The notes under the pieces are model-generated. The model was not told the origin of the DNA and did not search any database. It saw only the letters and a program-made list of their open reading frames with translations. The translations under genes were made by a program, and so were the position numbers. From Candidatus Peregrinibacteria bacterium (GTDB lineage Bacteria > Patescibacteriota > Gracilibacteria > UBA1369), in contig JADZCU010000042.1 of assembly GCA_020851415.1 (NCBI GenBank), forward strand, positions 1 through 36,948: a stretch of 36,948 nt of DNA, read 5' to 3'. Of the stretch, positions 4,316-35,878 are shown piece after piece; position 1 is the first letter of the stretch; each line of letters starts with the position of its first letter.

Positions 4316-4316
4316 T

Positions 4317-4625: not shown

Positions 4626-7600
4626 ATGGATGAACTGAATATCAAAACACTGGGATCAGAAAACCCAGACCCAAAAGTTCCAAGTGTAACACCGGAAACA
4701 CCGGTTGTTCCTGCTACTCCTGCAGCTTCGACTGCACCGACAGCGTTTAGTCTAGATTCAATCGGTTCATCAAATCAGCAACAAACATCAGCACCTTCAA
4801 CCGCTGCTCCGGCTTCTTCTGAAACAGAAAAAGTTCAACTCACATCAGGAGATGCGTCGCTCAATGGATCTGAAATGACGGCAGCCGGCACAACCGATGT
4901 AGTAGCACCTAAAAAATCATTTCTCAAAACCGGTCTAATTATTGCCGGTTCAGTAGTTGCAGTTGGCGCTGTAGTAGCAGCCGTATTTTTCGGACAAAAC
5001 GGATGGCCGTTCAAAGGCGAGCTGACCGCGGTAAACGAAGCAACGCGTTTTGTTGCGTTAACGCTCTGTCCGGACGATCAATATATGCCAAAGCAAACAG
5101 ACACAGCATTGAAATTAGTTGAATCGGCATTCGTCCCTGCCAACGCTCAGTCAGCAATTAACACGGAACTTTCAGACGTAAGAATTCTTGATAAAGCAAC
5201 AAGCATAAATCTGCAAGATGCAAGTCGTTTGCTAAATGAGGTAAACACTGTAGATACAACTGCCGACACTCTGAACACAGAGTTTCAAGCAAGCAACGAG
5301 TTAGTGCCATTACAATACGATATCAACCAATACCAGGCAACAATGGAACTTGCTCCATCATTACAGTACAACCTCAATAATCAATACCAGGCAACAATGC
5401 AGGTTGCCCCTGAATATGAAGTTACTTGTAAGGACATTCCACATGACAATCTCATCCCGGGTGAAAGAGAGTGTGAAGCGATTGATCTTCTCTACGCAGA
5501 CCCAACAGGATACTTATTGAACGATGTCACAAAACAACATCTCGAAGAATGGTATCAGATGTGTCACCCAAAAACAGAAGTACAATGTGGAGTAAATGAA
5601 GATTATTCCAAAGAAACAAACGAATGCGTATGTAAAGAAGGATACTTTGATATCGGCGCTGAAGTCGCAGATATGGAAAAAACAGACACACTGGCAACCA
5701 CAGATGAGGTAGTTGCAGAAACGTTCTCATACGCTGAAATCACAGACAAAATGATGTTGGAAGCCCCATTGGAAGGCACAAGATTACTGTACACAGACAG
5801 CATAAACACAAGAAGCAGATGTATGAATTGTGATGACATAAACGGCTATCTTGAAAAATACCAAACTCAACTCGCTACTGAAACTGATGAAACAATGAAA
5901 GTAGCTCTGCAGGCACGTATCGACAGGTTAAATCAGATTGCAGAAAAATATGGATGCAAAAAGCCAACTGTAAAATGTGCAGAAGATCAGGTACTTACAT
6001 CAGATGGTGTTTGCGAATGTCCTGCTTACTCTTACCTAGATGAATCAACACAAAAATGTACATTTGATTGTAAGAAGATTGTGAACTCAATAATTTCACT
6101 CCGTGATTCACCGACAAAAACTCCTGAAACAGAAAAACAGCTCAATGAATTCATGGATCTTGCGGCAAAAAATCAATGTGAAATCCCTGAAGAAAAAACA
6201 ATATGTCAGACCTATGAAGAAGATGCTCAAAAAGCCCTCAGTGAAAAAAACTATGACGCATACATTAGCATTAGCATGAAACTACTTTCTGCAGATTGTG
6301 GAAGGGAAGTAAACTCATGCCAACGTACCCTCGCAGAGGGAAGCCTTGTAAAGCGTGTCCAGGACATGGTTCAGGGAAACACCGAACTTGAAGAAAAATA
6401 CAAAGCACGCATGGAAGAATTAAGAGGTGAATATTACAGCAACGAAGAATGTCGTGACGACAATCGTTGTACAGAGATCGAAGCAACTCGTACAAAAGAG
6501 GATACTACCGTAACGATGCTCGATGAAACAAACGCCGAAACATTCAGAATTACTGAATACGCCAATATGGAACTCGCGCCTTTGAATCTTGAATACAGTG
6601 AGGTATATCTGACGGACAGAATCAACTACGAGTTAACTCCAAGCGAAGTATTCGAAGACGATAAAGAATACTACGACAAATACTGTCAAAAGCCGGAGCT
6701 CACTTGTGAAGAACTTTTGAAGAGATACAACCTTGATAGCTCAACTCCACAAAACAGCTCACTGGTTACAACGCTGGATGTCTCTCCGGAAGTTCAAGAT
6801 CAATTAAATCGTTGTCTTACGCCAACACGTGAATTTATACCTGAGAACCCAACGCTCACTTGTGAACCTTCTACAAGGAACGCAACCACAGGCCAGGTTG
6901 TGACCTGGACTGCAACAGTCGATGGCGTACTTGATAAAAATAGCGTTACCTACGAATGGAGCGAAGATGCCATTGGAACTGGAGAATCTGTAACAGCTAC
7001 ATATAATACAGAAGGTGAAAAGAACGTCTTGGTAGTAGCTTCAATAGCAGGTGACCCATCACTCAGAGCAACGTGCAGTACAAATGTAACTCCAATATCA
7101 CCTGTCCAGCCACCACCACCAACAGCTCCAGTACCAGGTCCGACCCCAGCTCCAGCGCCAGCACCGACACCTCCTCCAACCGCACCGGCTATAGCTCCAC
7201 CAACACCACCATCTCCGGTATCCAGCCCAACCCCAACTCCACCTCCGGCATCTGCAGCAATCCCGGCTGTGACACCGCCAACCCCTCCTCCAACCGCACC
7301 GGCTATAGCTCCACCATCACCATCATCTCCGATTGCAAGTCCGACACCTTCTCCAAGTACACCAGTGTCCCTTCCAATCACAACACCAAGTGCTCCGGTG
7401 ATAGCTACAACTACAAAACCGGTAGCCGTAACCCCGGTAGCTCCAGGCGCCCCGGTAGTACACTCTTCAGCACCTGAAGTAATACCTCCGGTGGTAGTCC
7501 CAGAAAAAGAAGTACCTCCAACCATCACTCCAACAGGTCCGGAAGTATATATCTACCTCATCGGCCTTGCAGTAGGACAGCTCTACTTCTTCCGTCGCAA

Positions 7601-7628
7601 GGTATTCGGATCGGTAAAAAATAAATAA
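4626..7628 (+). CDS. Large Cys-rich, Pro-rich surface protein with internal repeats
   Basis: 1000 residues. Residues 1-97 are Ser/Thr/Pro-rich. One membrane helix lies at about 100-123, so most of the chain is extracellular. The middle part has paired cysteines in EGF-like patterns (ECVCKEGYFD, VCECPAYSYLDESTQKC). A divergent repeat built around AETF...MELAPL...YTD.IN occurs more than once, along with two QYQATM(E/Q)xAP copies. A PKD-like beta-sandwich follows near residues 740-820 (YEWSEDAIGTGESV), then a Pro/Ala/Thr tract of about 130 residues and a C-terminal hydrophobic segment followed by FFRRKVFG. The segment before that helix (PTGPEVYIYL) resembles a C-terminal anchoring signal but is not a canonical LPxTG. 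Transcribed from its own promoter and closed by a terminator. Function unknown; adhesin-like. Confidence 0.85.
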   Translation: MDELNIKTLGSENPDPKVPSVTPETPVVPATPAASTAPTAFSLDSIGSSNQQQTSAPSTAAPASSETEKVQLTSGDASLNGSEMTAAGTTDVVAPKKSFLKTGLIIAGSVVAVGAVVAAVFFGQNGWPFKGELTAVNEATRFVALTLCPDDQYMPKQTDTALKLVESAFVPANAQSAINTELSDVRILDKATSINLQDASRLLNEVNTVDTTADTLNTEFQASNELVPLQYDINQYQATMELAPSLQYNLNNQYQATMQVAPEYEVTCKDIPHDNLIPGERECEAIDLLYADPTGYLLNDVTKQHLEEWYQMCHPKTEVQCGVNEDYSKETNECVCKEGYFDIGAEVADMEKTDTLATTDEVVAETFSYAEITDKMMLEAPLEGTRLLYTDSINTRSRCMNCDDINGYLEKYQTQLATETDETMKVALQARIDRLNQIAEKYGCKKPTVKCAEDQVLTSDGVCECPAYSYLDESTQKCTFDCKKIVNSIISLRDSPTKTPETEKQLNEFMDLAAKNQCEIPEEKTICQTYEEDAQKALSEKNYDAYISISMKLLSADCGREVNSCQRTLAEGSLVKRVQDMVQGNTELEEKYKARMEELRGEYYSNEECRDDNRCTEIEATRTKEDTTVTMLDETNAETFRITEYANMELAPLNLEYSEVYLTDRINYELTPSEVFEDDKEYYDKYCQKPELTCEELLKRYNLDSSTPQNSSLVTTLDVSPEVQDQLNRCLTPTREFIPENPTLTCEPSTRNATTGQVVTWTATVDGVLDKNSVTYEWSEDAIGTGESVTATYNTEGEKNVLVVASIAGDPSLRATCSTNVTPISPVQPPPPTAPVPGPTPAPAPAPTPPPTAPAIAPPTPPSPVSSPTPTPPPASAAIPAVTPPTPPPTAPAIAPPSPSSPIASPTPSPSTPVSLPITTPSAPVIATTTKPVAVTPVAPGAPVVHSSAPEVIPPVVVPEKEVPPTITPTGPEVYIYLIGLAVGQLYFFRRKVFGSVKNK
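7170..7202 (+). repeat. Direct repeat copy 1 in the proline-rich tract
   Basis: A 33-base exact match to 7284-7316, encoding the same PPPTAPAIAPP segment in frame. It indicates recent expansion of the proline-rich linker. Confidence 0.8.
7284..7316 (+). repeat. Direct repeat copy 2 in the proline-rich tract
   Basis: Second exact copy of the 33-base repeat, 114 bases downstream of the first and in the same reading frame. Confidence 0.8.
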
Positions 7629-19602: not shown

Positions 19603-20322
19603 ATGTCCGATCTCGAATCATTTTCAGGCTTTGACGGTAACGAGGCGTATGATCCCGCCGCGTTTGAACGATTCAAAGAACGCATGAAAGCTGCATCTGC
19701 CCAGCTGAAAGCAATTCAAGCCGGTGAGCAGAAACAAAAGAAAAAAGAGGACGAACTCATCAAAATCCTCCTCAAATTCATACAGTCCGGTCAAAATAGA
19801 GACGTACTCCTATTGATATCACACCTGCTGGAAGACAATGTCCCGGCAGGTTTCATCGTTGCCCTCATCGCCATCGCCTACGAAGAGATCCAAAACCAAA
19901 TCGGCCTCAAACTCCTGCCGGAGCCCGATGATTTAGCCAAGCATGCCGCAGCTGAGTCAGAAAAAGTACTCCTGGAAGGGACTACAGATCCACCAAAAAA
20001 AGAAACCCTGCCCGACCACTATATGCACGGGGATATTCTTCCGTTAAAAATCAAGATCGCCATAGACGCCTGGGTTCAGGAAATCTTTAAACGAGCCAGC
20101 GAAAACCCACATCGCATCATCAAAACCGGCATCGACCAGGAAGGAAACATCAAACTCACCATTATTCAGTTATCCACATTCTGTTTACGCGACTTCATGG
20201 AAAACCAGTCGCAGCCAGCGGAATATGACCGCCTCCGCGACTTCATGGAAGTTATGCTTCAGGGCATCTTCAAAAAACTCGATGACATGGTCAAAAACCA
20301 AAAAGAGCTTCGCGGGGAATAA
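19603..20322 (+). CDS. Unknown, mostly helical soluble protein
   Basis: 239 residues, no recognisable domain and no signal peptide. The N-terminal 45 residues are charged (Lys/Gln/Glu), followed by amphipathic helices with one hydrophobic patch near 85-105 (VPAGFIVALIAIAYEEI), too polar at its edges for a sure membrane helix. A DPPKKETLPDHYMHGDILP linker separates the halves; the second half contains a repeated RDFME motif. It starts eight bases after rpmA and is presumably co-transcribed with it. It may be a lineage-specific protein. Confidence 0.75.
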   Translation: MSDLESFSGFDGNEAYDPAAFERFKERMKAASAQLKAIQAGEQKQKKKEDELIKILLKFIQSGQNRDVLLLISHLLEDNVPAGFIVALIAIAYEEIQNQIGLKLLPEPDDLAKHAAAESEKVLLEGTTDPPKKETLPDHYMHGDILPLKIKIAIDAWVQEIFKRASENPHRIIKTGIDQEGNIKLTIIQLSTFCLRDFMENQSQPAEYDRLRDFMEVMLQGIFKKLDDMVKNQKELRGE

Positions 20323-21905: not shown

Positions 21906-22772
21906 CTAGAGAGCAAGAAAACTTTTCATGTTATACGGAAGAATCGTAACATCGTAATTGCGAGCCAATACATCAACCTTTTTTTGCTCATCCCCAGTAA
22001 AATACTCTTTACCATTAAACACTTTATTTTTTAAGAAATCATACTTCACCGCAAGTGTGCCATTATTGTACGCAAGTTCGCGGAACTCATTTCCATGAAG
22101 TACATAATAGGCGTATGACTCTGCAAAATCTTCAAATACATCACTCTTGGAATACCCGGAAACAAAATCCAGATCAGTCATATCATCCCGCAGCGTGTTT
22201 TCATTCTTAAAACTCAAAGAATAAAACTCAGCACTTGGATCATCGCTATAAACAGGAGCAGTACCGTCTACAAATCCACTGGCGCCATTTTCAGCGGAAC
22301 CCTGTAAAGACCCGGTATCAACAACATGACCCATCTCATGGACAAGCACACTGATCAATTCCTCATCGGTCACATTTTGGCATCTCAAAATAATGGTCGA
22401 TCCACCACCAAGACCGCGGCGACCGCTATCGGAAAAATATAAAGTAAGATTTTTCAATTGAGAAGCGTGCCGTGGAGGCAAACTTGCCAAAGTTTTATAA
22501 ACCAAAGATTTACAATGATTCAAAGAAGATTCAGTAGGTTTCGGATCACTGGACTCAAAATCCGTGCCCGGATGAAGTTTCACTCCAAGTTCACTCAACT
22601 TTGCAGCCGCTTCTTCTTCTGTCAGTGCAGTAGTTTGAGTTTCAACAACCATCTGTGAGTTCAAACGTTTACTCTCCATGAGTGAGTTCATAAACTCATT
22701 TGATTGGCCTGAAAGATTCAGAAGCGTAGTAATCAGAGCCGCGAGATTGAAGAATGTAATAGATCGTTTCAT
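21906..22772 (-). CDS. Exported HExxH zinc metalloprotease, unassigned family
   Basis: 288 residues from the ATG at 22772; upstream in-frame codons lie in the transcript leader. The N-terminal hydrophobic segment (about 5-22) is a signal peptide or anchor. HEMGH at 145-149 is a classical zinc-binding HExxH motif, followed by a likely third ligand and helper in EDFAESYAYY (about 214-223), as in gluzincin-type proteases. A Cys pair (87, 131) could form a disulfide. Substrate unknown; the neighbourhood of surface proteins and an M23 peptidase suggests an envelope role, which is inference. It shares a divergent promoter region with the coiled-coil gene at 23034. Confidence 0.8.
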   Translation of the reverse strand: MKRSITFFNLAALITTLLNLSGQSNEFMNSLMESKRLNSQMVVETQTTALTEEEAAAKLSELGVKLHPGTDFESSDPKPTESSLNHCKSLVYKTLASLPPRHASQLKNLTLYFSDSGRRGLGGGSTIILRCQNVTDEELISVLVHEMGHVVDTGSLQGSAENGASGFVDGTAPVYSDDPSAEFYSLSFKNENTLRDDMTDLDFVSGYSKSDVFEDFAESYAYYVLHGNEFRELAYNNGTLAVKYDFLKNKVFNGKEYFTGDEQKKVDVLARNYDVTILPYNMKSFLAL

Positions 22773-22850
22773 AAAGACAAAAACATAATTACAGGGCTGT
22801 ACTTGTGTTTTTGTTTTACGAAATGTCGGAATTTTGAACCTTTTATCCGT

Positions 22851-22876
22851 TCTGGAATCAAACAATTTCTTCCAGA
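22851..22876 (-). other. Leader hairpin of the metalloprotease mRNA
   Basis: TCTGGAA and TTCCAGA pair perfectly (7 bp) around 12 bases, close to the predicted transcript 5' end. The leader of about 108 bases also begins with a CACCTCCTG sequence resembling an anti-Shine-Dalgarno sequence. Confidence 0.5.
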
Positions 22877-23033: not shown

Positions 23034-24725
23034 ATGTCAGCACAAATAGGTGTCCCGAAAGCTTATTTAAAGCAACGTTTAGTCAATAGTCAGCCGGCTT
23101 TTAACACTTTCGCTCAAGCGACTGGCGAAAGGTATCGCATGATCACGAGTGGAGATCTTCAAAAAGTTGTCGTCGATTTTCAGGCAAAAGTACTCAAGGC
23201 GATTGATAGTTTTGAAGGAGATACTATCGCCAGCCTCGAAGAGTTAGCCACTATCTGCCAGGCCATCAGCGACATCAAAAAAGAAACCGCGGATGGTATA
23301 TTCAATCACGCACCTGGTCTCTCAAAAATAGCTCTCAGCTTCCGCCAATTAGTGGATGGGGAAAGATCAAAAGCCCTGGATGCAATTAAACAAGAATATG
23401 CGCTCCCAGAAAAAAAAGCTCAAAAAAACGGCCAAAATAAACCAAAGGTTCTGGCAGAAGATTCAGTCTTTTCTCATCTGGAAACCATGAATCAGACTGT
23501 AGAAAAAATAGTCGGAAAAATCAGTGCGCTCCTCTTAAACTGGTATCAGGACACAATCAGCAAACTTCAACAAAAGCTTAACAGTAATGATGGCGAGTAC
23601 AGCAAATCAATGTTAACAAGCATTGTCAGTGCAACAACCGCCATAGTCGATGACCTCAACGCCTTAAAACAGGATTTGGAAAAGTCGGCGGAAGAAAGTG
23701 CAGATATAAATTTTCCTACACTGCAGGATAAGCTCTTAAGAATGCTGGAAAGCATAGAGCAAAAGATCAAAAGTCCTGCCAAAAATCGTTCCCCGCAAGT
23801 ACAGGCTGCTTTGGATGAGGTAAATACTGAATCAATTGCATTAGCAATGATGAGTTTGGATATCAAACAATTTCACAAGATAGAGGGGACCCCGATTCTC
23901 AGTGGTGACACCCTGGAAAAAGCATTAGCCGAAAAATTTCTTGGCGAAAAGATCGCGGCAATAAAAGAAGGGAACGGCTCAAGAGATAACATAAGAGTAG
24001 GCGTTGCCGAGTACGAATATCTCAGTAAAAGCATCACGAATTGTGATGTAGCATCGGCGGAAGAGATTCCCCACGGCCGGCTCAAAAGAATGATCGAACA
24101 TTTAAACAATGAGTTTCACGGTGGCCTGGCTGTGCGTGATGCGAAATTTATAAAAAAATACGCGGAAAGCATAATTCAGGAACAACGGGAAAGTTTAGAT
24201 TCAGTTGGAACTAAGCTTGATCAGCTCAGCAAACCAAGCTTTAAAGCAGTCGCTACAGTGATAGATGCATTTTTCGCACTGGAAAGTGAACTGGCCGAGT
24301 TAGATATAAAGCTGAACGAATGTTTGGAGATAGAAAGGAAAAAAGACGAAATCGAAGGGAAATACAGACTTGCCAATCAGAAACATGAGCAATTAAAAAG
24401 AAGTGTTTCAGATGAAGAAAAAAAGATCAGTAGATTACGAAAAACCATGTCGGAAGGAGCGACCAATGCCACAACAGCGGAAGATTTTGCTGAATTGGCA
24501 AAATGCTCTGCGTCACTGAGTAGTGCATTAGCAAATGTAGAAAGACTCAAGCCGGAACTCATAACTTCATCTGAAGAAGTCGAGAGTATACAAATGCTGC
24601 TATTAGAAGCAGATCAAAACGATCAACTGCCGGAAAAAGCAAAAATCCTCAAGCGACAAGCCGAACTCAAAGCGGAAATTCAGGCAGCATCTGACCGCAC
24701 ACTCAAAGCACTCGAAACAAAATAA
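23034..24725 (+). CDS. Large coiled-coil protein, unknown function
   Basis: 563 residues, soluble, with no signal peptide. It is almost entirely helical: early helices (60-110), helical blocks from 150-250, and a strong C-terminal coiled coil (about 395-480, 505-560) rich in Glu/Lys/Leu. No enzymatic motif is visible. It is driven by the best promoter in the window and ends before a long hairpin. It resembles in style the helical proteins of the 25801-34469 locus but shows no motif in common that I can point to. A structural or scaffold role is possible. Confidence 0.8.
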   Translation: MSAQIGVPKAYLKQRLVNSQPAFNTFAQATGERYRMITSGDLQKVVVDFQAKVLKAIDSFEGDTIASLEELATICQAISDIKKETADGIFNHAPGLSKIALSFRQLVDGERSKALDAIKQEYALPEKKAQKNGQNKPKVLAEDSVFSHLETMNQTVEKIVGKISALLLNWYQDTISKLQQKLNSNDGEYSKSMLTSIVSATTAIVDDLNALKQDLEKSAEESADINFPTLQDKLLRMLESIEQKIKSPAKNRSPQVQAALDEVNTESIALAMMSLDIKQFHKIEGTPILSGDTLEKALAEKFLGEKIAAIKEGNGSRDNIRVGVAEYEYLSKSITNCDVASAEEIPHGRLKRMIEHLNNEFHGGLAVRDAKFIKKYAESIIQEQRESLDSVGTKLDQLSKPSFKAVATVIDAFFALESELAELDIKLNECLEIERKKDEIEGKYRLANQKHEQLKRSVSDEEKKISRLRKTMSEGATNATTAEDFAELAKCSASLSSALANVERLKPELITSSEEVESIQMLLLEADQNDQLPEKAKILKRQAELKAEIQAASDRTLKALETK

Positions 24726-24882: not shown

Positions 24883-25524
24883 TCAGTGGTGGCCTCCACC
24901 GTGGTCGTCGGCCTTGGCATGTGCCGCAGCCGGTTCGTCCGGGCTGTTCAGCGCTGACGCGACGACGACCAGGATCAGCACGGTGCCGATCAGCATGATC
25001 ACGGGGTGGTAGGTGAAGCCGGACACGATCGCCTTTCCGGCCATCCACAGGCTCCACATCAGGAAGGCGACTGCGAAGCCGCCAAACACCTTGAACTTTC
25101 CATCCTCCCCCTTAAGGAAGAGGTAGATCGCGCAAGGCACCACCCACGTGAGGAGCAACCAGGGCTCCAGATCGTGCGCCGTGGCCCAGTTGTACATCAA
25201 GGCAGCGCCGATCAGCAGTCCGATGATCTCGAACGGCTTCTCGCGCTTCCCGAACATCCAGCCCGAGACCCCGAAGAAGATTCCCCATGGAACGGCCAGA
25301 ATCACCAGCCAGCAGAGCAGGAACCCACCGCGATTTCCGGCGGCGTACCAGTTCCGCTCCAGGGCGTTGGTGATGTTGTACTGGCCAGTCGCCGCCGTTC
25401 CGCTGCCGGTCGGCATGGAGATCTGGGGCAACTTGTTCTCGCTGCACCCGGCGAGCGGGGCAGCCATGAAGGCCAGGGACAGAACGATCATGAAGCGTGC
25501 GAACAGTGCGTGCAATTTGGTCAC
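24883..25524 (-). CDS. GC-rich lipoprotein-like multi-pass membrane protein, probably transferred
   Basis: 213 residues from GTG at 25524 (AAGG eight bases upstream). The N-terminus is a lipoprotein signal ending in APLAGC, so Cys27 would be lipidated. About five hydrophobic helices follow (about 63-83, 93-105, 110-128, 135-152, 162-183), and the tail is Ala/Asp/His-rich (AKADDHGGGHH). Base composition is unlike its neighbours: 38 of 60 bases are G or C in 25021-25080 against 26 of 60 in 25981-26040, with a preference for C or G in third positions. It has its own promoter and structured leader. No family recognised; its His-rich tail resembles those of two proteins in the next locus. Confidence 0.7.
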   Translation of the reverse strand: MTKLHALFARFMIVLSLAFMAAPLAGCSENKLPQISMPTGSGTAATGQYNITNALERNWYAAGNRGGFLLCWLVILAVPWGIFFGVSGWMFGKREKPFEIIGLLIGAALMYNWATAHDLEPWLLLTWVVPCAIYLFLKGEDGKFKVFGGFAVAFLMWSLWMAGKAIVSGFTYHPVIMLIGTVLILVVVASALNSPDEPAAAHAKADDHGGGHH

Positions 25525-25543
25525 TTGGAACCTTGAACTTTCT

Positions 25544-25613
25544 CTCCACCGAAGTGGAGCATTGGAGTTGTGTGGCCTCAAGCCACGGTCTTTCAACAAC
25601 GTGGCGAAGCCAC
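25544..25613 (-). promoter_or_regulatory. Structured leader with three hairpins
   Basis: In minus-strand order: GTGGC-TTC-GCCAC (25613-25601), GTGGC-N5-GCCAC (25586-25572), and CTCCAC-TTCG-GTGGAG (25559-25544), the last with a stable UUCG tetraloop. They lie in a ~180-base leader, the last one 19 bases before the GTG start. It could be a cis-regulatory RNA. Confidence 0.55.
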
Positions 25614-25709
25614 TGTAAGAGCAGAGAGTACATCTACCCACTTGGCACTTTTTTAAAGTCCGAGCGAGCAAATGACTCCCTGTTCGATATGTCAAAGAAC
25701 AAGCATTGT

Positions 25710-25800: not shown

Positions 25801-28161
25801 CTACAACTCTATTTTTTTAGTACCCGTACTGTAATCTTTTGTGAATTGAATGCAGCGTTCCTCATAGTCAGAAATAAGATCTGACATCCAGTTAGAGCCG
25901 GTAATTTTGCTGATCTTTGATCCAATCCAAGATTCACGGCGAGCCGGATCATATTTCACCGGATCCAGAGATTTAAAGTAGGCGATTGCAGCACTGTCAC
26001 CAAGAACAGCCAAACGAACTTTATAACCTAAATCTTTTCGCATCTGTTCAACCAGCATCTGCTGGGCTGTAGAAGCATCCTTAAACCAGTTCGGCGGATA
26101 CAACTGTCCCAAAGTAGAAGTATCAAACCTTTCAGCAGCGCTTTTTTCAATATCAATAAGTTTCGTTTCAACATCTCTAAATACACCTTCGTTTGCGGCC
26201 AACTTTGGATTCAATTTTACTTCATCAAGAACAGCCTTTCGATCCTCTTCACTTTCAAAAATTTTCGTCAAAACATCTGCCGGTTTCATTCCACGGAGTT
26301 TATACTTATCAGTAAACCACTGACATATTTTCTGTAACTCTTCGGTTTGAGTAGCATCCATCATGAAGCGTGTTCGCAAACGCTCGGCTCTCCATGGGAA
26401 TTTTTCAGCCCATTCACTGTAATTTATTTTACTTTCAGGTCCAAAAACTTCGGCTGTTGCTTTTTCTTCACGAGCCGGAGGTTTATCAAGAATAACAGCT
26501 TTACGGCTATATTCAGGGCTGCCTTTAATCGGTACGCGGAAGAATTTCAAATACTTTGCGCCTTCTGCAACACGGACACCGTGACCAACTTCCAGAAATC
26601 TAAAAATAGTATCTTTAATGTCAGGATATTTACGTTTCAAAAAATCTTCAGTTTGGGTCAAAATACCGTTCACCATTTCACCAATCTTCTTCTCGTCGGC
26701 GGTAGCCATATCGATAGAAGTTTCATTCACGATATAAAGTGAGTCACCTGGGACTTCAACAAATCGGATGTTTGGAGCAACCGAATCTTTCGTTCCTTCA
26801 GAAGCAGCACGTTTAAAATGCGGTGCAGACTGAGGAGAAAATTTCTTATCAATAAATCCAGGAACATCACCATCTTTCATTACCTCATTTTGGAAATCTT
26901 CCTTAAAATATTTTTCACCCCATTCACGAACCTCCTGATCACTGCCTTTCGTACCACGAACCTTCAAATACAAAGGTCTCATAACACCAAGCCCTTCAGT
27001 AGTAACCCAAAAACCGTTCCAAATTCTATTGCCGTACTCCCGAACACCGTCAACAGTTCGCGCAGCCAGATTACCTTTAAAATCAAGCATGCCGTCCTCA
27101 GACATTTCCGTGGAAATAACCTGTGTCCAGTTGAGCTTCTGTTTTACGTTTCTATATTTAGGAACCAGTTTTTCTACCGGATAACGGCTGAAAAAAGTAT
27201 CAAGCGCTATATAAATCTCTTCCGGTGTCATATCACTGTTTTTCACAGTAACCACCGAAACTTTCTTTTCACCGGATGCTTTAGCATCCTGGTATTTCTT
27301 TGCCAGATCATTAAAATCCTGGGTTCCCATGTAGACAGTACTCTTTCTCAAACACTCTGCATTTTCAGGTGTTGTCTTAAAAGTTTCAGTCCAAAAAGAA
27401 TCCGTATCAACATTATTTTTGCTCCAATCCTTCAAAGTATCTACACCAGATTTACCGGTAAAAAGTTTCACCAGATAATTTAAAGTAATTCCACCGGCAG
27501 CCATTCCACCCGTAAATTTCAAAGCACCCCAAAGTTTCTCACGCATACCGGCAGTCTTTTCGCTGGTACCAAACCATATTGCACCGGCCAAAATACCACC
27601 GACAGTAACCAGTTTTTCACCGGAAGACATTTTCGCGTAATTTTTCTTAATATCTCTCAAAGTATCAGTAAACTGCTCCTTAATGCCCTTTTCAGCAGAA
27701 ATTTTCTCATCCTCGCGTTCACCCACAAAACGTTCACGCAAACGCAGTGAGCGGTAAGCAAGATCACGGACAGTCATATAACAAAGATGCGCCTGGCGAA
27801 GTTTTCCTTCCTTATCCAGTTCATTACGGCGCATCAACTCTTTTTGTAAATTCGAATTAAAAGTATTTTCATTCGTTTCCAGCATAAAGTCAGTCAGGCC
27901 GATTTTCTCAAAATAAGTCTGTCCTTCACGAATCATGTGAGCCATTTCCAACTCACCTTTCGTTCCTCCCTTATCCAAAATTTCCAAAGCAACACGCTGG
28001 TTAAAACGAGTATCAAAATTGTCGGCAGTATATCCGCCCTTATCCAAAAAATCCCGAAGTCGGGCATTATTGAGCGTCTCCTTTTCAGGAATTGCTTCAC
28101 CTTGCTGAGTTTTTTCGTCCTTTCCTCTATATTCACCCAGGACCTGCAGATAATCTCCCAT
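25801..28161 (-). CDS. 786-residue unknown protein with two hydrophobic segments
   Basis: No family recognised. Residues 1-180 are charged and helical (RLRERFVGEREDEK). Two hydrophobic stretches follow (about 184-203, GILAGAIWFGT, and 212-236, GGMAAGGITLNYLVKLF), which could be a membrane hairpin. The rest (about 250-786) is a mixed soluble region with many aromatic residues. No signal peptide and no catalytic motif. It is the last gene of the minus-strand locus but has its own extended -10 promoter and is separated from the gene before it by a bidirectional hairpin. Its promoter is nearly a copy of that of the first gene of the locus, which suggests co-regulation. Confidence 0.8.
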   Translation of the reverse strand: MGDYLQVLGEYRGKDEKTQQGEAIPEKETLNNARLRDFLDKGGYTADNFDTRFNQRVALEILDKGGTKGELEMAHMIREGQTYFEKIGLTDFMLETNENTFNSNLQKELMRRNELDKEGKLRQAHLCYMTVRDLAYRSLRLRERFVGEREDEKISAEKGIKEQFTDTLRDIKKNYAKMSSGEKLVTVGGILAGAIWFGTSEKTAGMREKLWGALKFTGGMAAGGITLNYLVKLFTGKSGVDTLKDWSKNNVDTDSFWTETFKTTPENAECLRKSTVYMGTQDFNDLAKKYQDAKASGEKKVSVVTVKNSDMTPEEIYIALDTFFSRYPVEKLVPKYRNVKQKLNWTQVISTEMSEDGMLDFKGNLAARTVDGVREYGNRIWNGFWVTTEGLGVMRPLYLKVRGTKGSDQEVREWGEKYFKEDFQNEVMKDGDVPGFIDKKFSPQSAPHFKRAASEGTKDSVAPNIRFVEVPGDSLYIVNETSIDMATADEKKIGEMVNGILTQTEDFLKRKYPDIKDTIFRFLEVGHGVRVAEGAKYLKFFRVPIKGSPEYSRKAVILDKPPAREEKATAEVFGPESKINYSEWAEKFPWRAERLRTRFMMDATQTEELQKICQWFTDKYKLRGMKPADVLTKIFESEEDRKAVLDEVKLNPKLAANEGVFRDVETKLIDIEKSAAERFDTSTLGQLYPPNWFKDASTAQQMLVEQMRKDLGYKVRLAVLGDSAAIAYFKSLDPVKYDPARRESWIGSKISKITGSNWMSDLISDYEERCIQFTKDYSTGTKKIEL

Positions 28162-28186
28162 GGTTTACGAACAAAAATATCTAATT

Positions 28187-28195
28187 ATTATATCA
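28187..28195 (-). promoter_or_regulatory. Extended -10 promoter of the 786-residue gene (twin promoter, copy 2)
   Basis: TGATATAAT (28195-28187) with a weak -35. The bases from 28205 to 28172 match the region 34540-34507 closely, including TAGATATTTTTG just downstream. The leader is about 20 bases with no ribosome binding site. Confidence 0.75.
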
Positions 28196-28196
28196 C

Positions 28197-28226
28197 AAAA
28201 GCCTTCAGAAAGCCATTAAGGCTTTT
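28197..28226 (-). terminator. Hairpin terminator inside the helical-protein locus
   Basis: AAAGCCTT and AAGGCTTT pair around a 12-base loop, with short T runs on both strands. The stop codon of the 140-residue gene lies in the stem. Probably bidirectional and perhaps leaky. Confidence 0.7.
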
Positions 28227-28638
28227 TCGTAAGCAACTTTGCCCTCAGGGCGGCAATTTCATCAGTTTCTCCCGTTTTTCTCATTCCCTCAAGCGATGCC
28301 ATCATTTCCTTCTCGGCGCCAAGGATTTCCCCTGTAAAAGCCTTATATTGGCTATTATTGTAGTCATCCTGAGTCTCTGTAAGACGTTCAAGATAGGGAA
28401 GTGACTGTTCCTTCAAAGCCCTGAGTCTGGCTTCATCAGAAGCAAGAGCCCCTTCAACAAACTCAATCGAACTATCCAGCATTTGCAAGTGCTGTGTCAT
28501 TTCTGCCATAAACTGGTCCTCGTCGCCCGCGCTGGCATCATTTGAGCTCAATTTTGAGATCCAATAAGCCTTTCGATCCGCCGGAAGTCCGGAAGTCTCA
28601 AGCGCCAGAAGAAAATTTTGAAGAGAAGTAGTATCCAT
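28216..28638 (-). CDS. 140-residue unknown helical protein
   Basis: A small, acidic, wholly helical protein (MDTTSLQNFLLALETSGLPA at the N-terminus, then long amphipathic helices). No motif recognised and no signal peptide. It follows the 628-residue gene after 20 bases, in the same operon, and ends in a terminator. It could be a partner or chaperone-like subunit of the larger proteins; that is inference from position only. Confidence 0.7.
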   Translation of the reverse strand: MDTTSLQNFLLALETSGLPADRKAYWISKLSSNDASAGDEDQFMAEMTQHLQMLDSSIEFVEGALASDEARLRALKEQSLPYLERLTETQDDYNNSQYKAFTGEILGAEKEMMASLEGMRKTGETDEIAALRAKLLTKKP

Positions 28639-28658
28639 AAAATTGAAGAGTAGTGGTA

Positions 28659-30545
28659 TTAGTTAACTGTAGCTTGTGCCCCACCGTTGGGATTTACATT
28701 TTTATTTTTCTTTTTGTCGGCCGCACGTTTGCGGTACTCCGCCAAAAGACGCTTATACACATCGGGTGTAAATCCACGCACACCTTCACTCTCATATTCG
28801 GGCGTAGCTTTGAAAGCCTCCAAAACACCTTTCATCTCACCCATATCGGCCTTCTCTTTGGAAAGCTCCTCAACCGTTCGATACACCTTAAAAAAATCTT
28901 CAGTCAAAGCCCCCATAAGTTTGCCTCCATCGGCAATGAAAGTTGTGCCGTCAAACTTACCGTCAAAGAAAAATCGCATCATTCTCTTTCGTTCAGGAGA
29001 AAGCTGTTTCAATTTTTCCAGGAAAATTTGCGGACCTTCGGTAAAATGAGGAGACCGTGCAATGAAAGCCAAAATCTCATCGTACTGTTTACCGTCCAAA
29101 TCAAGCTTTCCGGTCAACTCTTTCCACACCGGCTCAAAATCTTCCCTCAACTGATCCGAAAGTTCCGGACGTTTACTGTTCAGAACAATTTGATCATAAA
29201 TCGAATCAAAATCCTCTGACTTATAGTGATCGGGCCATAAGTTGGCATAATCCGCCAAAATACGATCCGCAGTTGTTGGATCCTTGGCATACTCTTTAGC
29301 CATACCCATAAACTTCACAACATTTTCCGGCGTAAGCTGAGCCACGCGTGACTCTTTCAATAAAAGTTTGCCATCCAGTTTCCCGCTGAAAAAGAACCGA
29401 AGATATTTTCCCATATAAGCATCAACTCGCTGAGTTTTAATCAAATCACGCAAAATTCCAGGCTGGTCTTTACGCATGGTTTCAAGAAATCCCGAGATCT
29501 CCTGTTCGGAAGGATCTTTATCAAACATTTCCTTCCACCAGCGTGCAATCTGCGCCTTCTCTCTGGACTTTTCAAGCGCGGTTGTTGGCGCAAGATAAAC
29601 ATCATTCAATGATCGTGCATGAGCAGGTTTAATACCAATAGCTTCATTCAGAAAAAACTCCATGTGAGTAATTCCCACATCTTTACCAAAAGCGGCTACC
29701 TGCTTACGGATGTTCGCCAATTGCTCATTATAAGCAGTCTCATCCATATCATCCTTATGCGCCTGTAACGTTTCAACCGTCGTCCCAAAACTTTTCTGAA
29801 AAAGTGCGCGACCCTTTTCGCGTAAAACCTGAACTTTTGCCAGTGTCGCTTCCAAAACCTTTTTATGATCCTCAAGCGTTTTAGTATCTTCCTTCAGTTT
29901 TTTAATTTTGTCCTTGGCGTGAAGATCATACTCCTCACGGGCGCGCTGCCGTTGGTTCCAGGCCGCCCCAAGACTCTCCACACTGTTCAAATCCGTAGAG
30001 AAAATCGTGTTCCAGGTCCCGCGCGCCTCCATTCGAGCCTTAAAAATATCGCGCGCCATACCAAGAACATTAGAAGTAGACTCTTTTGCCGCTGTCAAAA
30101 CAGCCAATTGCGCTTTGTTCGCTTCAATACGATCTTCAATCTCCTGAGTCTCTCGCATGATCGAATCAAGTTCATCCGCATCAACATTTTTACCAAAAAC
30201 TCTTCGAAAAACATTCCCCGCTTTCACTCGAACACTAAACTTTTCATCAACACCCACCGGCTTAAATTTCCCGTTTACCACATCAACCTGATCCTCAAAT
30301 TTATTCAGAATTTTTTCTTCCTGTTCAGTTTTAACCTTAGCCCGAAGATCCGCCACACGTTTCATAACTTCACGTCGAAAACGCAATTGCAGTTCACTGT
30401 GGATCGTCTCCTTTTTTAGGACATCCTCCACCAATTTATCCGCAGCCTCAGCTTTATCCTTCGGAAGTTTTGCCGCCTGTTTCACTGTGGACTCAACCAC
30501 CTCCTGATAATACTGCTGCTCAGTCTGAGAAATTCTATCAGCCAT
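28659..30545 (-). CDS. 628-residue unknown protein with paired FFFxGKxDG repeats
   Basis: No family recognised. Residues 1-80 and 125-290 are long charged helices, probably coiled coil. The C-terminal half holds two copies of a module marked by RFFFSGKLDG (about 383-392) and RFFFDGKFDG (about 524-533), each followed by helices, so a domain of about 140 residues appears duplicated. The end is basic and disordered. No signal peptide or membrane helix. It lies between the 129- and 140-residue genes with 19- and 20-base gaps, with no ribosome binding site. Confidence 0.8.
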   Translation of the reverse strand: MADRISQTEQQYYQEVVESTVKQAAKLPKDKAEAADKLVEDVLKKETIHSELQLRFRREVMKRVADLRAKVKTEQEEKILNKFEDQVDVVNGKFKPVGVDEKFSVRVKAGNVFRRVFGKNVDADELDSIMRETQEIEDRIEANKAQLAVLTAAKESTSNVLGMARDIFKARMEARGTWNTIFSTDLNSVESLGAAWNQRQRAREEYDLHAKDKIKKLKEDTKTLEDHKKVLEATLAKVQVLREKGRALFQKSFGTTVETLQAHKDDMDETAYNEQLANIRKQVAAFGKDVGITHMEFFLNEAIGIKPAHARSLNDVYLAPTTALEKSREKAQIARWWKEMFDKDPSEQEISGFLETMRKDQPGILRDLIKTQRVDAYMGKYLRFFFSGKLDGKLLLKESRVAQLTPENVVKFMGMAKEYAKDPTTADRILADYANLWPDHYKSEDFDSIYDQIVLNSKRPELSDQLREDFEPVWKELTGKLDLDGKQYDEILAFIARSPHFTEGPQIFLEKLKQLSPERKRMMRFFFDGKFDGTTFIADGGKLMGALTEDFFKVYRTVEELSKEKADMGEMKGVLEAFKATPEYESEGVRGFTPDVYKRLLAEYRKRAADKKKNKNVNPNGGAQATVN

Positions 30546-30564
30546 ATTTTTTTATTTTAGTTTT

Positions 30565-30954
30565 TTATTTTTTTTCGAGAATTTTGATGATCTCAACCCG
30601 TAATCGGATGATTAACGGTCCCAATTCATGTTGTATTTCGTGATCTTTTTGCAAAGCCGCAATGGCCTTAACCGCTTCAACACGAGTTTTAGCTCTCAAT
30701 TTTTTTGCACTCTCAGTCGCAATCCTTTTAAGTGCTGACAATTGTTCCGGAGTTGCCTGTTTTGGCGCATCATGCAAGTACTGTGCAAACTCATCATGTC
30801 CATGCCCGTGTCCGCCACCATGTCCATGTTCGGCACCATGGCCGCCATGTCCGGCCCCGTGCCCTCCATGCGAGTCACCATGACCTTCTCCATGTTCACC
30901 ATGATGTTCATCATGGCCGTGCCCTTCAGTATGTTCAGAATGTGTTTCAGACAT
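30565..30954 (-). CDS. 129-residue protein with a histidine/glycine-rich N-terminal half
   Basis: The first ~55 residues are built of H, G, E and D (HGHDEHHGEHGEGHGDSHG), with over 20 histidines, and the rest (about 56-129) is an ordinary helical domain. His-rich tails of this kind typically bind Ni2+, Zn2+ or Cu2+ in metal chaperones, but I see no metallochaperone domain beside it. No signal peptide. It is in an operon with a DUF5663-like gene (12-base gap) and the 628-residue gene. Metal storage or metal-dependent assembly is a hypothesis. Confidence 0.75.
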   Translation of the reverse strand: MSETHSEHTEGHGHDEHHGEHGEGHGDSHGGHGAGHGGHGAEHGHGGGHGHGHDEFAQYLHDAPKQATPEQLSALKRIATESAKKLRAKTRVEAVKAIAALQKDHEIQHELGPLIIRLRVEIIKILEKK

Positions 30955-30966
30955 ATATATAAATAA

Positions 30967-31335
30967 TTAAACCGCCAAAGGCTGCTTCATGGCACGTTCC
31001 ACCATGCTCGCTTCGCCAACCAGTTCCGAATACAAAGAATTAATGGCACGCTCCAACTGCTCTTTCAGTCCGTCAATACTGCTCGCAAGAACCATCAACG
31101 CATCAACTTCATCCAGTTCCGGATGATCCTCGAGCATCTTTTCAAACAGCTCCAGATCACGCTTCGTAAACGCACCGATAACAGTATCCAAAATGCGTTC
31201 CGTAAGCATCGTTTCAATCTGATCATGCAACGCTTCAAGAGTTTCCGGACGAACCTCGCCCAGTTGCATATCCTGAATAACACGGTCACCAAACTCGGTT
31301 GGATTAAAGTACAGAGTTTTCTTTTGATCTGACAT
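30967..31335 (-). CDS. 122-residue helical protein, DUF5663-like
   Basis: Acidic helical protein with evenly spaced hydrophobic positions (TLEALHDQIETMLTERILD, FEKMLEDHPELDEVDALM). The pattern resembles DUF5663-type small proteins common in CPR genomes, from memory only. AAAGG ends one base before the ATG, too close to act as a ribosome binding site. It follows the 1022-residue gene by 65 non-coding bases. Confidence 0.7.
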   Translation of the reverse strand: MSDQKKTLYFNPTEFGDRVIQDMQLGEVRPETLEALHDQIETMLTERILDTVIGAFTKRDLELFEKMLEDHPELDEVDALMVLASSIDGLKEQLERAINSLYSELVGEASMVERAMKQPLAV

Positions 31336-31400
31336 ACCTTTGAGAATTAATAATTATTATTTTTGTAAAACGCTTAGTGGTTTTGGGCGCCGATGCCTTC

Positions 31401-34400
31401 CTAATGATGCCCCCCACCGTGGCCGCCCCCGCCATGCCCGCCTCCGTGACCACCTGCCTTCGAAGGTGTAAATGCCCATTTCCACATAGGTCCCACAATA
31501 TTTCCCGCCAGAACAAATGGTGCTTTAGCAATCTTCAATGCAGTCCCGCCAATCCATTTAATTGGTCGGACAATTCCATGTCGAACCACAGGTTTCGCGA
31601 CTTTATTCACTCCAACGCTGGCAACCTTACCGCCTTTATCAGCCACAGCCCCAAGCGCGGACTTACCAACTCCTGCCGCAACCTTCGCCACGTCATAAGC
31701 CTCTTTCATGGCAAGCGCCGTAGATAAAGCCTTATAAGCGGTACTCAAACCACTTTCCTCAATCGAGTGCTCAAAATCACCATCGGACATACCGCTGGCT
31801 TTCGCCTCTTTTTTCTTTTCGTGAATTTTATCCAGGAATTTATCCTTCAAAAATTTCTTACTGAACATATTTTTCCAGTCGGCCAGTTTATCCGTCACTT
31901 TCTGGAAAATGGTACGTTCATCTTTCATCTGAGTTTCATATTTTTCACGCAACATATTCAAAACAATTTCCGCTTTATTGCCGTGCATAGTATTCACTTT
32001 TTCCTGGCGTGCACTCGCACGCAACACAGCACGAACCTTCAGCAGTGTGCGTATCAATTTTTCCATAGCTTCCGCATCGCGGTCATCAAGCTCTATTTTT
32101 CCTTCATGATGAGCGCTTTCAAACTTCAAATACGAAGAACGCAGTCTCATCGAATAATCGAACAAAGTCTTATACATTTCCGGGCTGCGAATATCTCCAA
32201 CACGACTGATTCGATCAATAATATCCGACTCCTGAATATCAGGTGGCATATCTTTAAACACGGAAAAGTTTTTATCCATGCCGGCAATATAATTAATCAA
32301 ATCTTTTCCACGATAAACTTTACGATTCTGATACCAGTCTTTCACCCACTGTTTCGCACGGCTCATTTTTCCATGATCTTTGCTCAACCATTGCTGATGT
32401 TCAAGATTAGTAGAACGGTGTACCTGCAGCATAACACCAGCTTCGTCTACCAACATATCAGCTGAAGCCTCTGCGTCCGCGTAAGCCATAGCCGGATCCA
32501 TAATACCAACACGGACAGCTTCACCACGCATAAGTTCAACCAACAGTTCATAAGGTTTCAACTGAGTTTTCAATTTAAACACTTTCAAACATTCATCAAT
32601 AACTTCCTTCTTCGCTTTCTTAGCATTCTCCGGTTTAAAATGATCCCGGAAAATCTTACGTAAAGGAGATTCGTCATCAGAAGGGCCTGTAGGATCTGCA
32701 GTACGACTAGCGGCTGGCGCTCTTGCCGCTTCTGCTATTGCAGCTGCAGCTTCCTCAGCATTTGTTATACCAAAAACACCTTTCTCCTTAGAACGATCAG
32801 GTTCGGTATCCACAATTCTTGTAATCATCACGCGCAAATTAGACACTGGGTCGGGAGTCGCAACTGCCGGAAGTGCTTTACTGTCATCCAATAATTTTTT
32901 CAAATCTGTCGCACTCTTCAAAAAAGCGGTCTCCGCTTCACGAACAGAAGTAAACATCTGTTTTTTGACAGCCTGTTTAGCGGTAATTGAAGCCTTTGTT
33001 TCTTTAATAAGATCTTTAACGGTATTGGCAGAAGAGTCCTGTTGATTGTTTCCACCCCTGTTACCACCAGGAGCAGGATTAGCTCTCGCCGTCGCAGCAG
33101 CTGCTAAAATAGTCTCCAAATTTTGGTTATATTTTGCCAATGCCATCGACTCTTCCAACAGTTCTTTACCAAGTGTCGCCGCCTCCGTATACAAATCATT
33201 CAAACCACTATATTTCGTAGCCAATAGCTCATTCGCTTCCTCAATTTTTTTCTTCTTATCCTCCGGCTTTTCTTTCCCTTCCTCATGATGATCGTCATGA
33301 CCGTGGCCATGACTTTCTTTAATCTTTATATCCTTCAATTTTTTCACCAGATCCTCAAGTTCCGGTTTCAAATCCGGAGCATTCGGATCACTCATGCGGC
33401 TCTCCAAATAATGTACCAAAGCCATCGCCTCGGCATTATGCTCAAGCTTATACAAAGCATCATGTTCCAAAACTTCATGTAACAAAAGATGATGAACATC
33501 ATGGTTCGAATGCTCAAGATCCCGAATAAAATTTGCTAAACGCTGTGGATCATAGACGGTACTTGAAACCATCTCATGACGTTCCTGGCCTTCAATTTTT
33601 TTGAACTGCAGTAATCGGTCAAATGGTGACAACGGTGGGCTGGCAGCCCTTCGAGCAAATATCTCGTGCGTCAAACCAACGGCACGGGTCACAAAATGAT
33701 CCAAAATATTCGGATCTTGCTGATAAGCCAAATCCCGCATCTGCGCCAATTCCCACGGTCTTGCAGAAGCCAGCTGGACAGCCTGTTGATAACGCAAAGC
33801 TGTTTGCGGTGTAAATCCTCGGGGTAAATTCGCCGGAACCGGTGGTAACTCAACTCCCAGTGTTTGAAGAGAGCTCTGCACAATACTGCGCTGCGCATCA
33901 TTCAAATCTTCCAGAGCACGGTTGGCCAGTCTCATCGACATCCCGGCAATAGTTTTTTGATCATCAAAAGCCTCCAGAAAGCGTTTTTCTGGATCAGTCT
34001 TTGGAGAAATAAAATTCGTGAGTTTTTTAAAAGCATGTTTCCCCAGGTGGAAAATTTTTCCCAAACGACCGCGTTCAACGCCATCATCCAGCTGCTCCTC
34101 TGGAACATTGATTTTTCGCTTAACACCCATACCTGCTTCCTCCTTTTGCTCATCCGGAAAAACCTCCTTCAAAAACCTTTGCGTCACACGTTCGTCCAAA
34201 AGCTGAGCATTCACTTTGCTGAACTCCCGGCGAACACCCAAACGTTCACGATCAGTCGCCTGATCGCCAAGTTGCAAAAACCCCTGGCGTTCTTTTACAT
34301 TCTCTGCCAGTTCACCGGAACGTCGAAGAGCTTCCGTTACACGAAACTCTTCCATGTTGAGCGGAGCATCTTCGTCGACTTTCTTTTTCAACAACACAGC

Positions 34401-34469
34401 TCTTTTCGGCAGCAAACGTATGGCCGAATCAAAACTTTTGTTTCCAGAGCAATGAAGAAAATTATTCAT
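31401..34469 (-). CDS. 1022-residue unknown protein with two His-rich segments
   Basis: First gene of the minus-strand locus. No family recognised and no signal peptide. It is mainly helical with charged N-terminal 150 residues. A His-rich patch lies near 388-400 (HGHGHDDHHEEG), followed by a Lys/Glu coiled coil, a Gly/Asn linker (about 480), more helices, and a Gly/Ala/Val-rich amphipathic stretch near the end (about 930-1000). The last ~18 residues are a His/Gly tail (GGHGGGHGGGGHGGGHH). The repeated His patches suggest metal-dependent binding or assembly. Transcribed from an extended -10 promoter shared in sequence with the last gene of the locus. Confidence 0.82.
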   Translation of the reverse strand: MNNFLHCSGNKSFDSAIRLLPKRAVLLKKKVDEDAPLNMEEFRVTEALRRSGELAENVKERQGFLQLGDQATDRERLGVRREFSKVNAQLLDERVTQRFLKEVFPDEQKEEAGMGVKRKINVPEEQLDDGVERGRLGKIFHLGKHAFKKLTNFISPKTDPEKRFLEAFDDQKTIAGMSMRLANRALEDLNDAQRSIVQSSLQTLGVELPPVPANLPRGFTPQTALRYQQAVQLASARPWELAQMRDLAYQQDPNILDHFVTRAVGLTHEIFARRAASPPLSPFDRLLQFKKIEGQERHEMVSSTVYDPQRLANFIRDLEHSNHDVHHLLLHEVLEHDALYKLEHNAEAMALVHYLESRMSDPNAPDLKPELEDLVKKLKDIKIKESHGHGHDDHHEEGKEKPEDKKKKIEEANELLATKYSGLNDLYTEAATLGKELLEESMALAKYNQNLETILAAAATARANPAPGGNRGGNNQQDSSANTVKDLIKETKASITAKQAVKKQMFTSVREAETAFLKSATDLKKLLDDSKALPAVATPDPVSNLRVMITRIVDTEPDRSKEKGVFGITNAEEAAAAIAEAARAPAASRTADPTGPSDDESPLRKIFRDHFKPENAKKAKKEVIDECLKVFKLKTQLKPYELLVELMRGEAVRVGIMDPAMAYADAEASADMLVDEAGVMLQVHRSTNLEHQQWLSKDHGKMSRAKQWVKDWYQNRKVYRGKDLINYIAGMDKNFSVFKDMPPDIQESDIIDRISRVGDIRSPEMYKTLFDYSMRLRSSYLKFESAHHEGKIELDDRDAEAMEKLIRTLLKVRAVLRASARQEKVNTMHGNKAEIVLNMLREKYETQMKDERTIFQKVTDKLADWKNMFSKKFLKDKFLDKIHEKKKEAKASGMSDGDFEHSIEESGLSTAYKALSTALAMKEAYDVAKVAAGVGKSALGAVADKGGKVASVGVNKVAKPVVRHGIVRPIKWIGGTALKIAKAPFVLAGNIVGPMWKWAFTPSKAGGHGGGHGGGGHGGGHH

Positions 34470-34600: not shown

Positions 34601-35878
34601 ATGAACGTTACGGTCAGCTCACTTCCAAAATCTGAAGTAAAAATTACAGTCGAACTCACTGAAGAACAAATGCAGAAATACCTTCAGAAAGCGGCAAAAC
34701 AGATCTCTCAGATGGTGAAAATCCCAGGCTTCAGACCTGGCCATGCTCCGCTGGACGTGCTCAAAAAGCATGTGCGTGAAGAGGCTTTCGACGGCCACCT
34801 GGTTGATATTGCCGTACCGGAAACTTATGGTGAAGCAGTACAAAAAGAGCAAGTAAAAGCAATTTCCCGCCCAAAAATCACCGTTTTACAACAAAGTCCG
34901 CTCAAATACGAGGCAGTAGTAGCGGTTTACCCTGAAGTGAAGGTTTCAGGATACGAAAAAGTGAAAATCGACAAAAAAGAGGCAAAAGTTGAAAACAAGG
35001 AGATCGAAGACGTCCTTGCGGAGATCCAAAAGCACCGCGCAACTTCAAAGGAAGTTGAACGTGCAGCCCAAAAGAGTGACCGTGTAGAAATTGACTTTCA
35101 GGGGTTTGACGAAGGCGGTGCCCCGCTCGAAAACACCGAAAGCAAAAATCATCCCGTAGTGATTGGAGAAGGCAGCCTGGTACCAGGTTTTGAAGACGCA
35201 CTGATTGGCATGAACAAAGGCGAAACCAAAGAGTTCACCGTCACATTCCCAAAAGACTATTTCCACAAACCGTTCCAGGGCAAAAACGTAAAATTCAAGG
35301 CCACCATGAACCGCGTTCAGGAGCCAATTTTACCTGAATGGACACCAGAATTCATCAAACAGGTGGTAGGTGAAGAAAAAACACTCGATGAAGTAAAGCA
35401 GACAATTCAAAACAACCTTCAGGAAGAAAAAACTCACAGCGAAACGGTTCGCCGTGAAAACAAATTCCTGGAACATATTGTTGAATCAACAAAAGTAGAC
35501 GTTCCGGAATCTCTGATTGAAGAAGAAATAGATGGCATGGTCGACGAATTCAAAAACGAGCTCGAAGGAAAGGGGATTACCATGGAACAATTTTTAGCTC
35601 AAACCCAAAAAGAGATAAAAGATCTTCGTGAAGAACGCCGCAAGGAAGCTACAAAACGCCTCACTCTGCGCTTTGGTTTGCAGCAAATTTTTGAACAGGA
35701 CAAAATCGAAGTAACTCCCGACGACATCAAAAAAGAGATGGAGCATGTTATAGGTCTGTATCCTGCAAATGAGCAGGCTCGTATGAGAAAAGAGTACACG
35801 GAGGGCAGCTACCTCATGCGCCGTCTGGAAAATAAGCTCAAAATGGACAAGCTATTTGAAAAATATATTGGTAAATGA
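34601..35878 (+). CDS. tig: Trigger factor, ribosome-bound chaperone
   Basis: 425 residues. The N-terminal ribosome-binding domain carries the signature loop GFRPGHAP (about 43-50), which contacts L23 at the tunnel exit. The FKBP-type prolyl isomerase domain follows (about 150-235: KSDRVEIDFQGF, VVIGEGSLVPGFEDALIGM), and then the helical C-terminal arms. Length matches the usual 430 residues. It folds nascent proteins; the tandem stop TGATAA is compatible with TGA being a stop. It is divergent from the helical-protein operon. Confidence 0.97.
   Translation: MNVTVSSLPKSEVKITVELTEEQMQKYLQKAAKQISQMVKIPGFRPGHAPLDVLKKHVREEAFDGHLVDIAVPETYGEAVQKEQVKAISRPKITVLQQSPLKYEAVVAVYPEVKVSGYEKVKIDKKEAKVENKEIEDVLAEIQKHRATSKEVERAAQKSDRVEIDFQGFDEGGAPLENTESKNHPVVIGEGSLVPGFEDALIGMNKGETKEFTVTFPKDYFHKPFQGKNVKFKATMNRVQEPILPEWTPEFIKQVVGEEKTLDEVKQTIQNNLQEEKTHSETVRRENKFLEHIVESTKVDVPESLIEEEIDGMVDEFKNELEGKGITMEQFLAQTQKEIKDLREERRKEATKRLTLRFGLQQIFEQDKIEVTPDDIKKEMEHVIGLYPANEQARMRKEYTEGSYLMRRLENKLKMDKLFEKYIGK

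Follow-up and report, generated by a model that had tools for sequence, protein, structure and literature searches.

Six consecutive minus-strand genes in the analysed window appear to be one version of an old, class-wide locus of Patescibacteria. Judging by sequence comparison, the conserved unit of this locus is the trio encoding proteins F1 (1022 aa), F2 (122 aa) and F5 (786 aa), and the genes of a 129-aa protein and of proteins F3 (628 aa) and F4 (140 aa) look accessory. The tentatively preferred reading of the locus is a platform associated with the membrane, one subunit of which serves in recognition and is altered by recombination; we infer the contact between subunits, the membrane site and the recognition alike.

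The window is a stretch of 36,948 nucleotides and makes up all of C42, one of the 81 contigs of a genome of 1.42 Mb. TGA serves as a stop codon in the order to which the window belongs; in-frame TGA occurs in some genomes of the same class, as in the code-25 Gracilibacteria, which suggests a Peregrinibacteria-like lineage for the window. An earlier sequence-only reading listed six closely spaced genes with products of 1022, 122, 129, 628, 140 and 786 aa. All six ORFs are present with exactly these lengths, and they are separated by gaps of 65, 12, 19, 20 and 54 bases, sizes that are consistent with one transcript. The alternation of large and small proteins described in that reading is imperfect, as two small genes stand in a row. 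The same reading suggested an assembly of several subunits associated with the cytoplasm or membrane. Membrane association is supported by a conserved hairpin in F5, but the 129-, 628- and 140-aa proteins are hardly constant subunits, their genes being missing from most relatives.

About 75 regions around trigger factor or zincin genes were compared. The gene order, which if confined to this genome would have counted against the earlier reading, also occurs in others and is fully present in the closest relative, G010, of a second genus, as 1022–122–(83)–628–140–786, with identities of 44 % for F2, 32 % for F3, 34 % for F4 and 37 % for F5. In most regions, a big gene lies divergent from trigger factor; it is often followed by F2, and then come zero to three variable genes, F5 and, often, a membrane protein and the zincin F7. 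Most families of the order have the core trio in this divergent position beside trigger factor; the exceptions among the regions, with the locus elsewhere or not seen, are G079, G034, G054 and, on split contigs, G022 and G027. Genomes of other orders of the class have a large gene whose product ends in a hydrophobic or basic stretch; next to it comes an F2 homolog in families f22 and f24, and a big gene straight away in f19. The next gene in f22 and f19 aligns to F5 profiles with E around 1e-4 (hhalign), a weak value in a set of 621 profile–profile comparisons, and the alignment in f19 includes the SGxEK hairpin of F5; the gene after F2 in f24 is not F5-like. Trigger factor in these orders is found on other contigs or, in G210, about 425 kb away. 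Since sets of the F1–F2–F5 type occur away from trigger factor, the trio is evidently linked in its own right and not just by regional synteny. The first gene can also be lost or reduced while F2 and F5 stay, as in three of five species of genus g23: G035 and G042 keep a C-terminal module of 125–128 aa that bears a His tail and shows a weak relationship to the C-terminus of F1, and G087 has none; the proteins of G024 and G086 have 784–802 aa.

Protein F2 (30967–31335, minus strand) is a small helical protein with 27 members in the loci and is present in 51 of 288 genomes of the class. Its alignment with 29 DUF5663 sequences (probability 97.5, E 8e-12, 117 columns; hhalign) indicates that it belongs to the DUF5663 superfamily as a remote relative, and profile–profile comparison (hhalign) ties it to four more groups. 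The Pfam model of DUF5663 (PF18908) is weakly matched by 3 of the 27 members; the F2 of the window gave no match to it at E up to 1 or 0.1 and lies below the curated cut-off. The earlier statement that no enzymatic function could be assigned to any of the six proteins holds in that none has an enzymatic or family match, and needs amending for F2. No description of DUF5663 was found in the published papers searched. Elsewhere in the same genome, two very large ORFs (902 aa and at least 964 aa) lie near a true DUF5663 gene, in a region of dnaK-/grpE-like genes (L129:9197–14811).

The accessory genes differ in their distribution. The 129-aa protein (30565–30954, minus strand) has a His/Gly-rich N-terminal half (residues 5–56) and no detected homolog; G010 has an 83-aa ORF in its place, with no similarity detected between the two. 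Helical protein F3 (28659–30545, minus strand) contains the FFFxGKxDG motif twice, as claimed, at residues 382–393 and 523–534 (29367–29402 and 28944–28979, minus strand). Both copies are degraded but recognisable in its sole ortholog, and in a low-confidence model each module is predicted to consist of a helix followed by a β-hairpin. Among 59 and 89 genomes (single-sequence or two-row search), F3 was found in the window genome and G010 only, and it is therefore regarded as accessory. Helical protein F4 (28216–28638, minus strand) recurs beyond G010 in three more loci (G004, G023 and G016); its homologs directly follow a big gene and precede F5 where F5 is seen.

F1 (BIG1; 31401–34469, minus strand) comes from the gene that opens the locus and is divergent from that of trigger factor. 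Homologs were found in 16 other loci by iterated HMM search, and its C-terminal half is homologous to the genes in first position in other families, with E from 2e-12 to 4e-5 (hhalign). Besides the 129-aa protein, F1 is the one with His/Gly-rich stretches, in keeping with the two such proteins noted earlier: the internal one, ESHGHGHDDHHEEG, covers residues 385–398 (33276–33317, minus strand), and the tail, GGHGGGHGGGGHGGGHH, comprises the last 17 residues, 1006–1022 (31404–31454, minus strand), with similar tails in relatives. The tail is preceded by a basic/aromatic, Gly/Ala-rich amphipathic segment, residues 959–1004 (31458–31595, minus strand), which is putatively membrane-associating. Relatives share its character, and proteins in the F1 position often end with a stretch of Gly, Ala and aromatic residues together with basic ones. 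His-rich tails are found in 11 of 55 F1-position proteins, in four families, versus 22 among 468 other ORFs (p 2e-4 in Fisher's test, uncorrected for kinship). A genome-wide role of the His tail as a common sorting tag was rejected, as only one other protein in the genome has a GHGG-x-HH ending. This 138-aa protein (L139:1108–1524), encoded on contig C33 near mutM, ends with GHGGGHH, as F1 does, and has an amphipathic helix between long His-rich segments.

F5 (BIG2; 25801–28161, minus strand) has 31 other members and is present in 46 of 288 genomes of the class; it aligns to big genes of families f3, f9 and f14 with E from 7e-12 to 2e-5 (hhalign). The hydrophobic pair noted earlier in this protein is a pair of moderately hydrophobic helices at about residues 179–236, conserved in homologs. 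It forms part of a hairpin, NYAKMSSGEK..KLFTGK, residues 174–237 (27451–27642, minus strand), with two Gly/Ala-rich helices. In the consensus, N-x(4)-SGxEK leads into a hydrophobic run of about 17 residues, and a charged loop connects this to a second one of about 18, which is followed by N-x(2)-KLxTGK. Its conservation supports membrane association of F5. The hydropathy is moderate (best windows about 1.3–1.9), several members fall below the usual transmembrane threshold, and a hydropathy scan found no segment of transmembrane strength in any of the six proteins. AlphaFold models, each built from two sequences, reached a mean pLDDT of 47 for F5 and 56 for F3, too poor to show a fold; comparison of the F5 model with the PDB gave a best Z of 5.2 to common helical arrangements only, which is not evidence either way. 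Sequence-profile searches of the PDB gave no match for F5 and coiled coils only for F1.

Across the order, trigger factor and zincin are roughly 28–63 % identical to the window sequences, F1 21–29 % and F5 21–41 %. F1 and F5 change far faster than the genes beside them. In three congeneric pairs of relatives, the first gene is a mosaic: the lowest identity per 100 codons is 0.49, 0.21 and 0.24, and dS there ranges from about 1 to saturation. The reference dS, taken from trigger factor or zincin, is 0.08 to 0.44. The C-terminal part retains an identity of 0.92–0.99 in two pairs and 0.79 in the third. In the pair G007/G011, codons 101–500 show 49–54 % amino-acid identity and dS from 1.5 to saturated, and codons 601–1000 show 98–99 % identity, with dS falling from 0.6 to 0.04 (zincin dS 0.08). 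Codons 201–500 in G058/G049 are 21–38 % identical at dS 1.6–2.6 (trigger factor dS 0.44). The first 1000 codons in G025/G036 are 24–45 % identical at dS above 1, and the last 260 codons are 92–97 % identical at dS 0.33–0.45 (trigger factor dS 0.25). F2 and F5 are nearly normal in divergence in congeneric pairs. The F1 identity between G007 and G011 is 0.764, against a median of 0.96 over 86 sampled reciprocal best pairs; among pairs with identity of at least 0.5, only one 310-aa pair, of doubtful orthology, is lower (0.55), and F1 is the lowest of the unambiguous orthologs sampled. Pairs below 0.5 were set aside, as they look like paralogs from incomplete sampling.

Synonymous divergence raised inside one gene points to the import of divergent alleles and not to relaxed constraint alone. 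The first gene in relatives of the window is, by these comparisons, allelically hypervariable beside a more stable C-terminus, and the allelic replacement suggests diversifying selection on it. As the window's F1 is without a close congener in the sample, its hypervariable part is placed by analogy: a hypervariable N-terminal and central part and a conserved C-terminal part, seen in its relatives, would be present in it as well.

These data bear on a rather unlikely alternative, in which the locus encodes a scaffold or a cytoskeleton-like intracellular assembly serving in shape, pole or division; its helical rods would tolerate almost any sequence, and the divergence would reflect relaxed constraint. 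The sequences are helical, charged and Cys-poor, the PDB profile matches of F1 are coiled-coil-like, the locus stands beside trigger factor in nearly all genomes of the order, and dN/dS is low in F2, F5 and the F1 C-terminus, all of which would suit such an assembly. Relaxed constraint, however, does not raise local synonymous divergence, and dS is saturated inside the first gene only.

The same hypervariability, together with the F5 membrane hairpin and the changing accessory genes, could also be expected of anti-phage defence, with F1 as a polymorphic sensor and F5 acting on the membrane as the effector. This explanation is quite improbable: the searches found no nuclease or NTPase and none of the other domains usual in sensors or effectors, PADLOC-DB gave no match at E 0.01 for nine proteins, and the locus is not patchily distributed but stands at a single fixed site in almost every species of an order.

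An N-terminal tag, xR[LF][VIL][FWY], occurs in about 12 % of locus proteins (19 of 156) and is rare elsewhere. The tag was defined on families f14 and f15 and then tried on the others, and was scored as xR[LF][VILC][FWYCHM] within the first 42 residues. It is present in 14 of 56 locus proteins in the two defining families, in 5 of 100 in the remaining families and in 2 of 456 other proteins; p is 0.003 for the comparison of the latter two, in a test that is not fully blind, the motif having first been noticed by eye in the full set of lists. Composition bias was all that an unsupervised search for N-terminal motifs found. One of the two tagged proteins outside the locus, a 1020-aa protein of G007 (L178:11265–14327), carries the tag as FKPARLVFD, lacks a Sec signal and matches GDSL hydrolases below threshold. 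GDSL hydrolases are often of an exported type.

If the tag directed proteins to export or docking by a pathway not yet described, proteins of the F1 and F5 types could act outside the cell, attaching to or attacking a host cell. The enrichment of the tag in the locus, its presence in the GDSL-like protein, the secreted-type zincin adjoining the locus and the twin-arginine-like N-termini of two of the three genes following F2 in family f24 all agree with export or injection, as does the low Cys content: 0.2 % in F1, F2 and F5, versus 0.93 % in 39 soluble G007 proteins and 0.25 % in nine secreted-like ones. Trigger factor is also low in Cys (0.07 %), so Cys content leaves the localisation undecided. 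Export is distinctly unlikely, in view of the missing Sec signal in F1, F2, F3 and F5, the lack of the strict tag in most locus proteins, those of the window included, and the internal hydrophobic hairpin of some members, which would hinder passage.

The transcription unit may run on beyond F5 into the gene of F6 (24883–25695, minus strand), a multi-pass membrane protein with six homologs in five other loci, and, in most relatives, into that of F7 (21906–22865, minus strand), a predicted secreted zincin that closes the locus there. F6 has a His tail, HAKADDHGGGHH, and a probable internal start at a lipobox-like LAGC (25444–25491); its gene is tandemly duplicated in G011 (L040:6418–7951). F7 contains HEMGH and FEDFAE, nearly invariant in 25 members, that is, the HExxH and downstream acidic ligand of a zincin. 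It is 33–57 % conserved across the order and nearly always adjoins the locus. On the other side, tig (34601–35878, plus strand), identified by Pfam as trigger factor, lies divergent to the locus and serves as its anchor in the order. A 563-aa coiled-coil protein with a weak Rad50-like match is encoded at 23034–24725, between the genes of F6 and F7 but on the other strand, and was not seen at that position in the relatives compared. A 239-aa conserved protein of the same synteny block (19603–20322) weakly matches a model of a gliding-motility ATPase-complex subunit (E 0.002), and three large PKD-repeat or Pro-rich proteins (618+, 821 and 1000 aa), probably secreted or anchored, are encoded at 1–7628. 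The row of large unassigned ORFs that makes up the locus might suggest a remnant of an integrated virus or mobile element. The chance of this is very slight, given the absence of PHROGs matches for the six proteins, a site with neither integrase nor tRNA, and order-wide synteny.

In the tentatively preferred reading of a membrane-associated platform, F5, via its SGxEK hairpin, and F1, via its amphipathic, often Gly/His-tailed C-terminus, would sit on the cytoplasmic membrane, and F2 would join both. The F1 C-terminus, F2 and F5 would form the constant platform, with further helical genes inserted among F1, F2 and F5 in a lineage-specific way. The N-terminal two thirds of F1 would be a recognition face, swapped by recombination under diversifying selection and directed at something variable: a phage, a host cell or a competitor. 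A broader proposal, which we consider unlikely, is that of a class-wide machine unrelated to known systems, in which the platform displays the recombining F1 N-terminus and several components, together with at least one hydrolase encoded elsewhere, share a short N-terminal targeting tag, which would mark a new route of sorting or docking used in interaction with hosts or phages. Patescibacteria account for a large share of bacterial diversity and are mostly uncultured and host-dependent. The locus is a concrete, testable candidate for the means by which they recognise hosts, rivals or viruses; the SGxEK hairpin, the F2 family and the N-terminal tag are markers for finding the system where ordinary homology search fails.

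Searches of Pfam, NCBIfam, PHROGs and PADLOC gave nothing significant for the six proteins, all members of the F1 and F5 alignments lacked a family match, and no description of the locus was found in the published papers searched. Type IV secretion or conjugation was rejected: the matches to T4SS (E 0.58) and TraP (16 bits, cut-off 135) are non-significant and the locus has no ATPase. The two large proteins of the core match no known system or family, although they may have remote relatives at the level of fold.

Several known groups can be compared with parts of the locus. DUF5663 comprises small helical proteins widespread in Patescibacteria, with which F2 aligns over its length. The DUF5663 genes inspected in other genomes are for the most part close to genes for IF-2 or for methionyl-tRNA formyltransferase-like and peptide deformylase-like proteins, whereas F2 is encoded between two large helical genes. 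F7 shares HExxH and FEDFAE with zincins of the Peptidase_Mx (PF15887) and TIGR04549 type; it matches TIGR04549 weakly, and all 25 aligned members match PF15887 weakly. The F7 of the window, however, is below the curated cut-off, and no SusC/SusD-type neighbours were seen beside it. Hypervariable recognition loci of bacteria include restriction specificity subunits, surface antigens and polymorphic toxins. No sequence relation between these and the locus was found, and the locus is without a restriction, toxin or surface-anchor domain; like the allelically exchanged recognition loci, however, it has a swapped segment beside a constant one, with a gradient of linked divergence.
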